DNA of 64,000 nucleotides from Halobium salinum. Lineage in GTDB: Archaea; Halobacteriota; Halobacteria; Halobacteriales; Haloferacaceae. Below, piece by piece: positions 41,019-46,406 of the stretch. Made by a program: the position numbers and the translations under genes. The stretch's first letter is position 1. Every line of letters begins with the position of its first letter. Where the stretch lies: contig NZ_JAODIW010000010.1 of assembly GCF_026586625.1 (NCBI RefSeq), positions 396,755 through 460,754 of the forward strand. The letters run 5' to 3'. The notes under the pieces were generated by a model. It saw only the letters and a program-made list of their open reading frames with translations. It was not told where the DNA came from and ran no database searches.

Positions 41019-41828
41019 CTACCCGAACGCGCCGAGGCTGGACTGGAGGTCGCGCTCGCTCGGCCCCGCCTCGACCTCGTAGCCCACGAGGTCCCGCACG
41101 TCGACGGCGTAGGTGGTCCCGCCGCGGTCGAGTACGAGCAGTCGGCCCTTCGTCCCCCGGACGGTGCCGCTGGCGATGGTCTCCGCGACCGGGCGGTCCG
41201 CGAGGTCGAGACCGTAGTCGAACGTGAACGTCTCGATGGGGTCGAACCCGTCGAGCAGTGACTCCCACGCCGCGTCGTCGACGGTCGAGCCGAGCCCGTC
41301 GCGCTTGGTCGGGACGCGGACGGCGTCCGAAATCGACTCGGCGATGCCGGCCTCGATTTCGCGAGCGATACGGCCGTTGGCGACGGTTCTGACGTGCGCC
41401 CCGCGGTCGGCCCCCTGCTCACGGAGGCGGGTCTCGAGGCGCCACAGCTTCGTCACGCCCACCTTGAACCGGTCGGGCGCGAAAGCGGCGAGGTACACCG
41501 CGTGGTCGTCGTAGCAGTCCATCGTGTCCTTCAGACACGTTCCCGTGCAGCGGGCACACACCCACGTGCTCCGGTGGTCGCGGCAGTACGGCGCGTCCGT
41601 CGCGTCGCAGGCGACGTGGCCGGCGTCGGTGAACGTCCCGGCACAGCGGCGCGTCCCGAGGGAGTAGGCGAGTTCGGCGCCGGGGTCGAGCGGGACGTAG
41701 GCCACGTCGTCGACGCCGGCGGTCCAGTGGTCGGCGGGGGTGTCGCCTCCCTCGTCACTCCCCCCGTCGGCGACGCCGCTCAGCAACAGTCCGGCGTCCG
41801 CCCCGCTGTCGTACCCGACGATTTGCAC
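41019..41828 (-). CDS. DUF2797 family protein
   Basis: 269 residues. Cys-rich central section 'RRCAGTF...HVACDATDAPYCRDHRSTWVCARCTGTCLKDTMDCYDDHAVYLAAFAPDRFKVGVTK' with several Cys/His pairs, the hallmark of DUF2797, followed by 'RLREQGADRGAHV' resembling a GIY-YIG-like nuclease core. Zinc binding is likely; nucleic-acid related function is inferred only. Convergent with the gene at 40474. Confidence 0.88.
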   Translation of the reverse strand: MQIVGYDSGADAGLLLSGVADGGSDEGGDTPADHWTAGVDDVAYVPLDPGAELAYSLGTRRCAGTFTDAGHVACDATDAPYCRDHRSTWVCARCTGTCLKDTMDCYDDHAVYLAAFAPDRFKVGVTKLWRLETRLREQGADRGAHVRTVANGRIAREIEAGIAESISDAVRVPTKRDGLGSTVDDAAWESLLDGFDPIETFTFDYGLDLADRPVAETIASGTVRGTKGRLLVLDRGGTTYAVDVRDLVGYEVEAGPSERDLQSSLGAFG

Positions 41829-41926
41829 GAAGTTCGGTAGTAGGGCGAGCGCGAAAAGGGTGTCCTTCGCGGCGTAGTGAGGCTCCTGAGGAAGCCAAAG
41901 ATATTAAAAATAATTTAATTTGGAAA

Positions 41927-41935
41927 GATTTAAAC
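41927..41935 (+). promoter_or_regulatory. TATA-like box of subtilase gene 1
   Basis: GATTTAAAC, 26-34 nt before ATG 41961, preceded by AATTTGGAAA. The same AATT-GG-AA-GATTTAA block precedes subtilase gene 2. Confidence 0.65.
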
Positions 41936-41960: not shown

Positions 41961-43151
41961 ATGGGAGACAAAACCAATGACACGAGTCGGCGTAACGTAC
42001 TTCGAGTCGTCGGTGGCGCCGTCGGGACCGCGGGCGTCTCCGGGTTGGCGTCGGCGAAGCCCTCGGACGAACTCGAGGTGAACGTCGGGTTCTCCACACC
42101 GGCCGGGCGTCGGGCCGCGGAGCAGGCTGCCACCGACGTGAAGCGAACGTTCGCCTTCGACGCGCTGACCATGACGGCCCCCGCAGAGGCGCTGAAGGGA
42201 CTCCGCAAGAACCCGAACGTCAGATACGTCGAGGAGAACGGAACGATGGAAGCGCTCGCGCAGTCGACGCCGTGGGGAGTCGACCGCGTCGACGCCGAGG
42301 TCGCCCACGCCAGCGGCGAGCAGGGGACCGGCGCCGACGTGGCGATTCTCGACAGCGGTATCGACTCCGACCATCCCGACCTCCAATCGAACCTCGGCGC
42401 CGGGAAGGCGTTCGTCGACTGTGGCACCGGCGGGTTCACCGGGTCGTGTGCGTTCTACGGCAACGGCAACGCCTGTAACGAGCCGTGGGACGACGACAAC
42501 GACCACGGCACCCACTGTGCCGGCATCGCGAGCGCCGCCGACAACTCGCAGGGCGTGGTCGGCGTCTCCACCGACAACACGCTCCACGCCGTCAAAGTGC
42601 TCGACTGCGCCGGCTCCGGGTCGTTCTCCGACATCGCCGCCGGCGTCGAGTACACTGCGGACCAGGGGTGGGACGTTGGGAGCATGAGCCTCGGCGGGAG
42701 TTCGAGTTCGCAGGTGCTGAAGGACGCCTGCCAGTACGCCGTCGACAACGGCGTGTTCCTCGTCGCCGCCGCCGGCAACTCCGGGCCCTGTACGGACTGC
42801 GTCGGCTACCCCGCCGCTTACGACACCGTCATGGCCGTCAGCTCCACGAACAGCAGCGACGGCCTCTCGGAGTTCTCCTCGCAGGGGCCGGAAATCGAAA
42901 TCGCCGCGCCGGGGTCGAACATCAACTCCACGGTCCCGGGCGGCTACGCCGAGAAGTCCGGCACCTCGATGGCGTGCCCGCACGTCGCCGGCGCGGCCGG
43001 TCAGCTCGCCGCCGACGGGTACACCAACACGGAGATTCGTTCCCGGCTGAAGAACACGGCCGAGGACATCGGCCTCGCCGAGAACGAGTCCGGTGCGGGC
43101 CTCCTGGACGCGGCCGCCGCGCTCGGCCTCGACTCCAGCGACAGCACGTAA
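41961..43151 (+). CDS. Tat-exported subtilisin-family serine protease 1 (halolysin-like)
   Basis: 396 residues. Tat signal 'SRRNVLRVVGGAVGTAG' with AxA end, an I9-type propeptide inhibitor (about 36-97, 'NPNVRYVEENGTM'), then the S8 catalytic domain with Asp131 (DSGID), His182 (HGTHCAG) and Ser336 (GTSMACPH). A Cys-containing loop (154-172) lies between Asp and His. It lacks the ~120-residue C-terminal extension of classical halolysins. Secreted endopeptidase. Tandem with a close paralogue at 43342. Confidence 0.95.
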   Translation: MGDKTNDTSRRNVLRVVGGAVGTAGVSGLASAKPSDELEVNVGFSTPAGRRAAEQAATDVKRTFAFDALTMTAPAEALKGLRKNPNVRYVEENGTMEALAQSTPWGVDRVDAEVAHASGEQGTGADVAILDSGIDSDHPDLQSNLGAGKAFVDCGTGGFTGSCAFYGNGNACNEPWDDDNDHGTHCAGIASAADNSQGVVGVSTDNTLHAVKVLDCAGSGSFSDIAAGVEYTADQGWDVGSMSLGGSSSSQVLKDACQYAVDNGVFLVAAAGNSGPCTDCVGYPAAYDTVMAVSSTNSSDGLSEFSSQGPEIEIAAPGSNINSTVPGGYAEKSGTSMACPHVAGAAGQLAADGYTNTEIRSRLKNTAEDIGLAENESGAGLLDAAAALGLDSSDST

Positions 43152-43305
43152 CCCGGCCGACCGTCACCTTTCGTCCTCGGGACGCCCCACCGTCGTCCGG
43201 TCTCCTCGACCATCTCGGTCAGTTCTCCGAACTACAGACGTGGAATCTACTGTCTCCCGTAGAGCAACGAATAGCGAACGGGTTTAATCTAAGAACTAAT
43301 TGGGA

Positions 43306-43314
43306 AGATTTAAC
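43306..43314 (+). promoter_or_regulatory. TATA-like box of subtilase gene 2
   Basis: AGATTTAAC upstream of ATG 43342 (-28 to -36), part of ATTGGGAAGATTTAA shared with subtilase gene 1. Overlapped by an inverted repeat AAGATTT (43305-43311)/AAATCTT (43325-43331). Confidence 0.6.
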
Positions 43315-43341
43315 TATTCGTGGCAAATCTTCACGTGCGTC

Positions 43342-44529
43342 ATGGTGCACAACACCACGGGACCATCACGGCGTGACGTACTTCGGGCAACTGGTGGCGC
43401 GGTCGCGGCGACCGGGCTGATGGGTGTCGCGACCGCGAAGGAGGGTGAGACGGTCGAACTCAACGTCGGCTTCTCCGGGTCGGCCGGGCGGAGCGCGGCG
43501 CGCTCGGCCGCGGACTCCGTGATTCGGGAGTTCGCCTTCGACGCCATTACCATCCGGGCGAGCCCGAAGGCGGCGAAGGGCCTCGAGAACAACCCGAACG
43601 TGCGGTACGTCGAGGAGAACGGGACGATGTTCGCGCTGGCGCAGTCGACACCGTGGGGGGTCGACCGCGTCGACGCCGAGGTCGCCCACAGCAACGGGTA
43701 CACGGGCGCCGGTGCCGACGTCGCCATCATCGACACGGGCATCGACTCCGACCACCCCGACCTCCAGGCGAACCTCGGTTCGGGGAAGTCCTTCGTCCAG
43801 TGTAGTACGAAGGGCGGCTGTCGCTACGGGGCGAAGCCGGCCGACAACACCTGCTACCAGTCGTGGGACGACGACAACGACCACGGCACCCACTGCGCCG
43901 GCATCGCGAGCGGCGACGACAACTCACAGGGCGTGGTCGGCGTCTCCACCGAAAACACGCTCCACGCCGTCAAGGTGCTGGACAAGTGCGGGTCGGGGTC
44001 GTTCTCCGACATCGCCGCCGGCGTCGAGTACACTGCGGACCAGGGGTGGGACGTCGGAAGCCTGAGCCTCGGCGGCAGTTCCGGTTCGCAGACGTTGCGA
44101 GACGCGTGTCAGTACGCCGTGAACAACGGCGTGTTCCTCGTGGCCGCCGCCGGCAACTCCGGACCGTGTACGGACTGCGTCGGCTACCCCGCCGCCTACG
44201 ACACCGTGATGGCCGTCAGCTCCACGAACAGTAGCGACGGTCTCTCGAACTTCTCCTCGCAGGGGCCGGAAATCGAAATCGCCGCGCCGGGGACGGACAT
44301 CTACTCGACGGTCCCGGGCGGCTACGCCACATTCTCGGGTACGTCGATGGCGTGCCCGCACGTCGCCGGCGCGGCCGGTCAGCTGGCGGCACAGGGGTAC
44401 ACCAACACGGAGATTCGCTCCCGGCTGAAGAACACGGCCGAGGACATCGGTCTCGCCGCCAACGAGTCCGGCGCGGGCCTGCTCGACGACGCCGCGGCGC
44501 TCGGTCTCGACTCCAGCGACAGCACGTAG
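43342..44529 (+). CDS. Tat-exported subtilisin-family serine protease 2 (halolysin-like)
   Basis: 395 residues from ATG 43342 (an ATG at 43300 lies upstream of the TATA box). Same architecture as subtilase 1: Tat signal 'SRRDVLRATGGAVAATG', propeptide, Asp131 (DTGID), His181 (HGTHCAG) and Ser335 (GTSMACPH), no C-terminal extension. The catalytic domains are nearly identical, while the Cys loop between Asp and His differs (CSTKGGC... versus CGTGGFT...), which may change specificity or stability. 190 nt after its paralogue, with its own promoter. Confidence 0.95.
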   Translation: MVHNTTGPSRRDVLRATGGAVAATGLMGVATAKEGETVELNVGFSGSAGRSAARSAADSVIREFAFDAITIRASPKAAKGLENNPNVRYVEENGTMFALAQSTPWGVDRVDAEVAHSNGYTGAGADVAIIDTGIDSDHPDLQANLGSGKSFVQCSTKGGCRYGAKPADNTCYQSWDDDNDHGTHCAGIASGDDNSQGVVGVSTENTLHAVKVLDKCGSGSFSDIAAGVEYTADQGWDVGSLSLGGSSGSQTLRDACQYAVNNGVFLVAAAGNSGPCTDCVGYPAAYDTVMAVSSTNSSDGLSNFSSQGPEIEIAAPGTDIYSTVPGGYATFSGTSMACPHVAGAAGQLAAQGYTNTEIRSRLKNTAEDIGLAANESGAGLLDDAAALGLDSSDST

Positions 44530-44696
44530 ACCGCGTTCCGACCCGACCCGCTCCGACGCTTTCGACCCACGGCCGGACGGAGACGCGCCCGTTCGCCGAC
44601 GCGGTCGCTCTCGGGGAGCCACACACGTCGAGGAGCGTCGAGCGGGTAGGACGCGACCGGGCGTCGTAGGGGAGACTCCGCGGACCGCCGAGACCC

Positions 44697-44882
44697 CTAT
44701 CGGTCCCCGGCGTCCTTGACGTTTCGCGACCCGCAGTCGGGACAGCGGGCCGCAGTCATCTGTGACTTCGGGAGTTCGAACCGCTCGCCACAGGAGACAC
44801 AGCGGTACGCGAAGGTCTCCTCCGCGGCGGAGGGCGAACGGTCGCCCGATACAGCCTCCGTGACGGTTCCCAGGAGTCCCAT
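44697..44882 (-). CDS. small zinc-ribbon protein
   Basis: 61 residues: 'YRCVSCGERFELPKSQMTAARCPDCGSRNV' contains two CxxC knuckles of a rubredoxin-like zinc ribbon behind a short N-terminal helix. Unknown partner; it lies between the subtilase pair and the proteinase-inhibitor-like gene, on the opposite strand. Confidence 0.8.
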   Translation of the reverse strand: MGLLGTVTEAVSGDRSPSAAEETFAYRCVSCGERFELPKSQMTAARCPDCGSRNVKDAGDR

Positions 44883-44943
44883 CTGTCACGCCTCCGCAGA
44901 GCGCTTGCGTGTCCACCCATTTCAACCTTGTTCAGCGCCCCAG

Positions 44944-44952
44944 AAAATTAAG
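44944..44952 (+). promoter_or_regulatory. TATA-like box of the BsuPI-like gene
   Basis: AAAATTAAG, 25-33 nt before ATG 44977. Confidence 0.6.
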
Positions 44953-44976
44953 TCCGTCCGACCCGTCGCCTCGCGT

Positions 44977-45318
44977 ATGCTCACGGGCAGTCTCTCCGCC
45001 GAACCGGTCGACGACGCGGTCCGCTTCACACTCGCCGTCGAGAACGACGGCGAGGAGGCGGTGACGCTCTCGTTCAGGGACAGCATGCGTGCCGACTTCG
45101 CCGTTCGAGCGGGCGACGACGACGGGGGGACCGAGGTATGGCGCTGGAGCGAGGGACGGATGTTCGCCCAGATGCTCGGTACCGAGACGGTCGGCGCCGG
45201 CGAGACGGTGACCTTCGAGGGGACGTGGGACGACCCCGAACCGGGCGAGTACGTCGCCGTCGCCGACCTCGCCGCGAACGACGCCGACGTGTCGGCGGAG
45301 GCCGAGTTCTCGGTCTGA
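44977..45318 (+). CDS. BsuPI-type intracellular proteinase inhibitor-like protein
   Basis: 113 residues from ATG 44977, well placed behind a TATA box. Single all-beta domain: 'VRFTLAVENDGEEAVTLSFRDSMRADFAVRAGDDDGGTEVWRWSEGRMF...TVTFEGTWD...PGEYVAVADL' matches the BsuPI immunoglobulin-like family, named after the Bacillus inhibitor of the intracellular subtilisin ISP. No signal peptide, so cytoplasmic. It lies 450 nt from two subtilase genes on the same strand; inhibition of these or other subtilisins is inferred. Confidence 0.85.
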   Translation: MLTGSLSAEPVDDAVRFTLAVENDGEEAVTLSFRDSMRADFAVRAGDDDGGTEVWRWSEGRMFAQMLGTETVGAGETVTFEGTWDDPEPGEYVAVADLAANDADVSAEAEFSV

Positions 45319-45330
45319 CGACCCTTCCGC

Positions 45331-46260
45331 CTACACGAGTTCGTCGACGAGGTCGCGCGCCCCGCGGCGAACGGCCTCGTCGCTGGAGGTCGGCGGCTCC
45401 CACCCCAGCGCGGAGAGCTTCTCGACGGAGAGGCGCATCTTCGGTACGTCGCCGGTCCAGCCGCGGTCGCCGCCGGTGTACTCGTACTCCGGACTGAGCC
45501 CCATCTCCTCGGCGACGATGTCGGCGATGCGCGTGACGGAAGTGGTCGTTCTGGTGCCGAGATTGAACGTGTTCATCGGCGCGTCGGCGTGGGAAACGAC
45601 GTGACACATCGCGTCGACGCAGTCCTCGACGTGGAGGTAGGACTTCTCCTGGCGGCCGTCGCCCAGAATCTCCAGCGTCTCGGGGTCCTCCTGCAGCTTC
45701 TGGATGAAGTCGGGGACGACGTTACCGCGCTGGTACGGGCCGACGATGTTGGCGAAGCGGTACATCCAGACGGTGAAGTCGTGGGAGTGGGCGTACACCG
45801 ACACGAGCCCCTCGTCCGCGAGTTTCGAGGCGCCGTAGACGGAGATGGGTTCGAGCGGCGCGTAGTCCTCGGGCGTCGGCATCGGCGCCTCGCCGTACAC
45901 CGTCGAGGAGGAGGTGAACGCGACGTTGTCGACGCCGACCGCCTTCATCCGTTCGAGGACGTTGTACGTCATCTCCGTGTTCTCCTCGAACAGCCGGCGG
46001 GGGTTCGCGTAGTTCGTGTCGGTGTACGCCGCGAAGTGGAAGACTGCGTCGAGGTCTGCCGTGACGACCTCGGCCACGTCGTCGGCGTCGGTCATGTCCG
46101 CCTGCACGAACTCGACGCCGTCGGGGACGCGCTCGCGGTCCCCCTTCGAGAGGTCGTCGGCGACGACCACGTCGTTGTCGGCGGCGAGGCGGCCGGCGAG
46201 ATGCGAGCCGACGAGGCCCGCGCCACCGGTGACGAGGAGCCGCTTGTCGGTGAGTTCCAT
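45331..46260 (-). CDS. NAD-dependent nucleotide-sugar epimerase (SDR extended)
   Basis: 309 residues from ATG 46260. Rossmann motif 'VTGGAGLVGSHLAGRL' at about 10-25 and catalytic 'YGASK' (Tyr-x3-Lys) near 140 with an upstream Ser-Ser-Thr; 'RFANIVGPYQRGNVVPDFI' and 'SYLHVEDCVDA' are typical of UDP-glucose 4-epimerase-like enzymes. Interconverts NDP-sugars for surface glycans. Convergent with the BsuPI-like gene, 12 nt apart. Confidence 0.93.
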   Translation of the reverse strand: MELTDKRLLVTGGAGLVGSHLAGRLAADNDVVVADDLSKGDRERVPDGVEFVQADMTDADDVAEVVTADLDAVFHFAAYTDTNYANPRRLFEENTEMTYNVLERMKAVGVDNVAFTSSSTVYGEAPMPTPEDYAPLEPISVYGASKLADEGLVSVYAHSHDFTVWMYRFANIVGPYQRGNVVPDFIQKLQEDPETLEILGDGRQEKSYLHVEDCVDAMCHVVSHADAPMNTFNLGTRTTTSVTRIADIVAEEMGLSPEYEYTGGDRGWTGDVPKMRLSVEKLSALGWEPPTSSDEAVRRGARDLVDELV

Positions 46261-46406
46261 GCGACCTACTGTTTCGGGCACCGGCAAGTGCGTTCTGGTC
46301 CCCTCCACCGGCCGGACGGCCGTCGATGCCGACCCAAACACCCGTCCGACGAACGCTTTACTCCCTGTGTGTCGTACTGTCACTCACGTCACGGACGGTG
46401 CGTATC

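Follow-up and report, generated by a model that had tools for sequence, protein, structure and literature searches.

How does a haloarchaeon that exports its subtilases already folded keep them harmless inside, and is a small protein encoded beside them the answer? The question is raised by a locus of Halobium salinum (assembly GCF_026586625.1, contig NZ_JAODIW010000010.1, positions 396,755 to 460,754); this whole stretch of 64,000 nucleotides is referred to here as the window. It encodes in tandem two S8 proteases with predicted twin-arginine translocation (Tat) signals, S8a and S8b, followed by a protein of the BsuPI family. The Tat pathway exports folded proteins, and a cell that exports proteases in this way must therefore keep them harmless inside. 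Such protease genes recur beside BsuPI in a fixed genomic slot, and we favor, with moderate confidence, the reading that BsuPI is a cytosolic guard of Tat-exported halolysins. The three genes are:

41961 to 43151, plus strand: S8a, a subtilase of 396 amino acids with Tat signal, propeptide and catalytic domain (PF00082, 180.7 bits)
43342 to 44529, plus strand: S8b, a paralogue of S8a of 395 amino acids, with the Tat signal SRRDVLR in its translation (PF00082, 182.3 bits)
44977 to 45318, plus strand: a BsuPI-family (I22/IPI-like) gene encoding 113 amino acids (PF12690, 101 bits, E 3e-29)

An earlier interpretation made from the letters of the DNA (the sequence-only reading) had placed these genes and assigned their families, and the Pfam matches uphold both. 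Its tandem Tat-type pair followed by BsuPI within 450 bp is likewise borne out, with 447 bp between the S8b stop and the BsuPI start. Its gene order was incomplete, as a zinc-ribbon gene lying between S8b and BsuPI, on the opposite strand, was overlooked; in this genome BsuPI is thus not the next gene after the proteases. The gene and the borders of the slot are:

44697 to 44882, minus strand: a zinc-ribbon protein gene of 61 amino acids (Zn_ribbon_8, E 4e-8)
41019 to 41828, minus strand: a DUF2797 gene, the left border (PF10977, E 6e-21)
45331 to 46383, minus strand: an NAD-dependent epimerase/dehydratase gene, the right border in many genomes (PF01370, E 1e-50; synteny)

Across haloarchaea, 80 BsuPI loci, each with its flanking 8 kb in both directions, were taken from 293 genomes, the window being the 81st. 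The usual order is DUF2797 (minus strand), zero to six S8 genes (plus), BsuPI (plus) and the epimerase (minus). An S8 gene lies within 8 kb at 25 of the 81 loci (24/80 and the window), in 19 genera and eight families, and usually directly upstream. By BLAST boundaries, 47–131 bp separate the end of S8 from the start of BsuPI in 15 of 23 upstream-linked loci, always on the same strand, while in genome G282 the S8 genes, three in number, follow BsuPI. Carriers include Haloprofundus marisrubri, Halostella pelagica, Halogranum amylolyticum, Haloferax marinum and Halobacterium sp. TGN-42-S1; in Natrinema and Natrialba, BsuPI adjoins DUF2797 without S8. Chance adjacency was rejected, since the S8 density predicts about 3% against the 24/80 observed, a comparison in which related genomes are not independent; recurrence of the architecture in eight families also shows that the association is not due to chance. 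Rigden et al. (2013) reported no IPI homologue near a subtilisin gene in any completely sequenced genome (PMC3901451), a statement that no longer holds for present genomes.

The slot was also inspected where BsuPI is missing. DUF2797 is found in 281 of the 293 genomes, and its border was examined in 48 BsuPI-free genomes (two of 30 loci in one batch proved to be a DUF2797 paralogue and were excluded). None of the 48 has an S8 gene in the slot; in many BsuPI-free genomes DUF2797 adjoins the epimerase. Among genomes with a close S8 anywhere, a slot S8 is present in 25/75 with BsuPI versus 0/28 without (Fisher p 1.6e-4), although shared ancestry among the genomes inflates the apparent strength of such p values. 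At two BsuPI-free loci, L128 and L140, the zinc-ribbon gene immediately precedes DUF2797 in the same orientation. The two S8 genes separate this pair in the window, so the S8 genes and BsuPI occupy different junctions.

The sequence-only reading had proposed that BsuPI-like genes and Tat subtilases should be compared for co-occurrence. With halolysin-like S8 defined as E ≤ 1e-30 to S8b, and the closest S8 subfamily as E ≤ 1e-110, BsuPI is present in 162 and halolysin-like S8 in 175 of the 293 genomes. Both occur in 142, BsuPI only in 20, S8 only in 33 and neither in 98, giving an odds ratio of 21; the corresponding genus-level table is 41/6/8/33. The association persists within genera, where shuffling of BsuPI yields 134.5 ± 1.7 expected co-occurrences as opposed to the 142 observed. 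Of the 78 genomes with a member of the closest S8 subfamily, 75 contain BsuPI.

The window BsuPI matches PF12690 over profile positions 2–99 of 101, far above the cut-off of 22.9 bits. Among solved structures it has one significant relative, B. subtilis IPI (BsuPI, I22, 3ISY; phmmer E 6.5e-8), a reported inhibitor of subtilisin, the target being Isp1. An AlphaFold2 model built from 42 haloarchaeal orthologues (predicted local distance difference test score 93) superimposes on 3ISY with Z 16.7 and a root-mean-square deviation of 1.6 over 110 residues, the next fold scoring Z 9.8; the modeled protein is thus predicted to be an IPI-type Ig-like β sandwich with a wedge loop. Like IPI in its classical form, BsuPI has no signal peptide: none was found in 80 orthologues (~110 amino acids) at their likely starts. 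Isp1 is intracellular and the ipi gene does not adjoin the Isp1 gene, whereas BsuPI here adjoins arrays of Tat-type halolysins.

The predicted contact element of BsuPI is the following:

45139 to 45177, plus strand: BsuPI residues 55–67, WRWSEGRMFAQML, the conserved loop corresponding to IPI 56–68 (conservation; IPI docking, PMC3901451)

Among the 80 orthologues, the best-conserved stretch of 11 residues is 55–65 (WRWSEGRMFAQ, window protein numbering), with W55 and F63 present in all and Q65 in 75/80. The segment is mostly coil and lies near the locally lowest model confidence. Conservation of a coil is the pattern expected of a binding loop, though no proof of one. Residues 61–67 (RMFAQML) align with IPI 62–68 (KMFTQAF), which the docking model of Rigden et al. 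(PMC3901451) lays across the Isp1 active site with Gln at P1. The loop is slightly altered in genomes without a close halolysin, where M62 is retained in one of six proteins, several of these six belonging to one genus; elsewhere it is retained in 61 of 74. Four loci of a genus without close halolysins (L053, L061, L071 and L077) have Ala at this position, which may point to a specificity that has relaxed or shifted.

Three further observations concern the family. In one genus of the window's taxonomic family (L111, L112 and other g2 genomes) the BsuPI genes are divergent, with E values of ~1e-10 to 1e-22, and most of these genes are found where close halolysins are missing. The BsuPI model further resembles the N-terminal region of the zinc protease AsaP1 (2x3a residues 23–151; Z 9.2, 103 aligned residues with 23% identity), perhaps a hint that this fold and protease prodomains are related. 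BsuPI proteins that are 35–42% identical to the haloarchaeal ones occur mostly in Gemmatimonadota (L217, L227–L235, L238, L239, L241 and L242); the halolysin S8 profile found no S8 near these genes, and no sensitive search was made.

The two proteases are 79% identical and clear the PF00082 cut-off by a wide margin (181 and 182 bits). Their translations contain the catalytic D-H-S motifs (DSG/DTG, HGTH and GTSM), and the twin-arginine motifs, SRRNVLR in S8a and its counterpart in S8b, predict export. The TTG at 43300 taken from the open reading frame list makes S8b too long; the gene begins at 43342. The closest solved relatives of S8b are ordinary subtilisins. Both reading frames stop at 395–396 residues, where the catalytic domain ends, and because they lack a C-terminal extension like that of the Natrinema protease SptA, we class them not with the SptA-type halolysins but as halolysin-like S8 proteases. 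Slot enzymes elsewhere are mostly ~380–410 residues long, also without the extension, and an RRxxL Tat signal is readable in nearly all intact slot genes, the two exceptions having uncertain starts.

These signals bear on the possibility that BsuPI controls a signal-less intracellular subtilase, as IPI reportedly does Isp1 in Bacillus, with the halolysin adjacency being secondary. The founder's target is indeed intracellular, and Rigden et al. predicted intracellular subtilases in two haloarchaea. In genome G056, however, the sole S8 detected is a Tat-type slot enzyme adjoining BsuPI, leaving no detected cytosolic subtilase as its target there. Nearly all strong S8 genes of the window's own genome encode twin-arginine N-termini, and none is clearly signal-less. 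The idea is weakened by both cases, and we regard it as improbable.

Some slot copies are unusual. The BsuPI-adjacent S8 genes at L084:8368-9483 and L104:6832-7941, from one genus, have AAGGSG in place of AAGNSG and have lost the oxyanion-hole Asn. A regular-expression screen had flagged them as inactive, but D, H and S are all retained; they are possibly weak or decoy proteases. Broken or truncated S8 copies lie within arrays at L078, L092, L203 and L222, which points to fast turnover of slot S8 genes.

Each of the three window genes has a TATA-like element ~26–41 bp upstream of its ATG, as read by eye:

41920 to 41933, plus strand: TTGGAAAGATTTAA, putative B recognition element (BRE)/TATA of S8a (sequence; A+T profile)
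43300 to 43313, plus strand: TTGGGAAGATTTAA, putative BRE/TATA of S8b (sequence; A+T profile)
44944 to 44951, plus strand: AAAATTAA, putative TATA of BsuPI, with a probably leaderless transcript (sequence; A+T profile)

The claim that the three genes share a strand and have separate promoters agrees with these elements. Upstream of BsuPI, A+T content peaks at −30 to −25 at both linked and unlinked loci, reaching 0.80 and 0.79, respectively, at −27 to −25 compared with a background of ~0.35; for 41 S8 genes the peak is at −33 to −28. Since the peak is present whether or not S8 is linked, BsuPI probably has its own promoter, and its transcript is probably leaderless. Guard and proteases could then be regulated separately. 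A simple co-transcribed operon in the window was rejected on sequence grounds, in view of the opposite-strand zinc-ribbon gene, a divergent neighbor of BsuPI with which it has a common intergenic region, and of the separate TATA elements.

These observations suggest how a guard might operate. BsuPI would bind folded halolysin precursors, or halolysins that have prematurely self-activated, while they await Tat export. Its conserved loop (WRWSxGRMFAQxL) would occupy the active-site cleft and block it, probably in a reversible manner; upon export the protease would escape. A single guard gene, transcribed separately, could serve the Tat proteases of the tandem array next to it as that array grows or shrinks, and in many genomes perhaps halolysins encoded elsewhere as well. 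What the sequences and the model show is family, fold, location signals, synteny, co-occurrence, promoter elements and loop conservation; we infer from them that BsuPI binds and inhibits the proteases, where it does so and that they are released on export. More tentatively, and with slightly less conviction than for the guard itself, we suggest a dedicated cytosolic safeguard in which a single BsuPI gene permits repeated tandem expansion in the slot and is a precondition for proteases to become established there.

That such a guard might be needed is illustrated by SptA of Natrinema sp. J7-2, a haloarchaeal S8 protease that is exported by Tat, the pathway predicted for the slot enzymes. According to PMC6085418, SptA can mature inside the cell, and its intracellular self-activation is harmful. 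SptA with a mutated signal and active inside kills Haloferax volcanii, and active intracellular SptA hastens the death of its Natrinema host (both from that paper, citing Du et al. 2015). The control search gave no BsuPI match in Hfx. volcanii. SptA differs from the slot enzymes in its C-terminal extension, and Natrinema gari, a relative of its host, has BsuPI (L198) without an adjoining S8.

The sequence-only reading had interpreted BsuPI as a safeguard against proteases that fold before export. This is favored by the predicted cytosolic location of BsuPI, the Tat signals, co-occurrence within genera and the absence of slot S8 genes from BsuPI-free genomes. Several points weigh against it. 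At 56 of the 81 sampled BsuPI loci, no S8 gene lies within 8 kb, which is the synteny half of what that reading had named as evidence against itself. Among the 162 BsuPI genomes, the 20 without a close halolysin include 15 with other S8 genes and five in which no S8 was detected at E ≤ 1e-5, and S8 without BsuPI occurs in the 33 genomes counted above. Halolysins already carry an inhibitory propeptide. MEROPS no longer lists the I22 family, which was dropped over doubt about true inhibition, a matter disputed even for IPI. Natrinema J7-2 accumulates active SptA inside in death phase (PMC6085418), although N. gari has BsuPI. A control for lifestyle belongs here as well: genomes with two or more M28 peptidases are also associated with BsuPI (odds ratio 7), an association that holds within families and is not significant within genera (p 0.12). 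The BsuPI–S8 signal thus has one component due to shared lifestyle and another particular to S8; an explanation by lifestyle alone is weakened by the lower M28 association.

The co-occurrence with M28, the many loci that keep BsuPI beside DUF2797 without S8 and the genomes lacking any detectable S8 would also fit a BsuPI with an unrelated binding function, Ig-like folds being common binding modules, and an S8 link produced by a tolerant slot and a shared protein-degrading lifestyle. We consider this unlikely, given that slot S8 without BsuPI was never found (0/48), that the S8 association exceeds that of M28 and survives within genera, and that the best-conserved part of BsuPI is the very loop that was docked in IPI. 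Alternatively, BsuPI could escort export, binding the folded proprotease and delivering it to Tat or keeping it export-competent. Redox-enzyme maturation proteins act as escorts for other Tat substrates, and the synteny, co-occurrence and location data are the same for an escort as for a guard. Against an escort, the genomes with S8 and no BsuPI include some with close halolysins (G260, G267 and G284), and Hfx. volcanii, itself without a BsuPI match, secretes SptA (PMC6085418). We therefore give the escort little weight and retain the guard. Its Tat specificity is a matter of inference: Tat and non-Tat targets are inseparable when almost all of the close haloarchaeal S8 proteins examined look Tat-type. 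A Tat-specific safeguard is plausible: better supported now, though not demonstrated.

Staphostatins offer a further parallel. They are cytosolic, and the staphopains are exported via Sec. Here too an inhibitor gene lies beside that of a secreted protease (ScpB and SspC; scpAB and sspABC) and protects the producer (PMC8443034), so that inhibitors encoded beside secreted proteases are already known. As read from sequence, BsuPI and the slot S8 enzymes reproduce the arrangement of an inhibitor without an export signal and a protease with one. Staphostatins differ in having an unrelated fold, cysteine protease targets and bacterial operons; the sequence of the window does not suggest a single operon, with separate promoter elements and an opposite-strand gene, and its proteases are predicted Tat substrates. 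A literature search outside subscription journals returned nothing on BsuPI in haloarchaea, nothing linking halolysins with protease inhibitors and no cytosolic guard for Tat-exported proteases; the word "inhibitor" is absent from the SptA paper (PMC6085418). As far as the papers searched show, the haloarchaeal pairing, the fixed slot with expanding arrays and the fit to folded export are new.

For the organism, SptA indicates that the danger of an active protease inside the cell is real. For the family, the recurrent pairing of S8 with BsuPI provides a natural enzyme–inhibitor pair with which to ask whether BsuPI/IPI proteins inhibit proteases.

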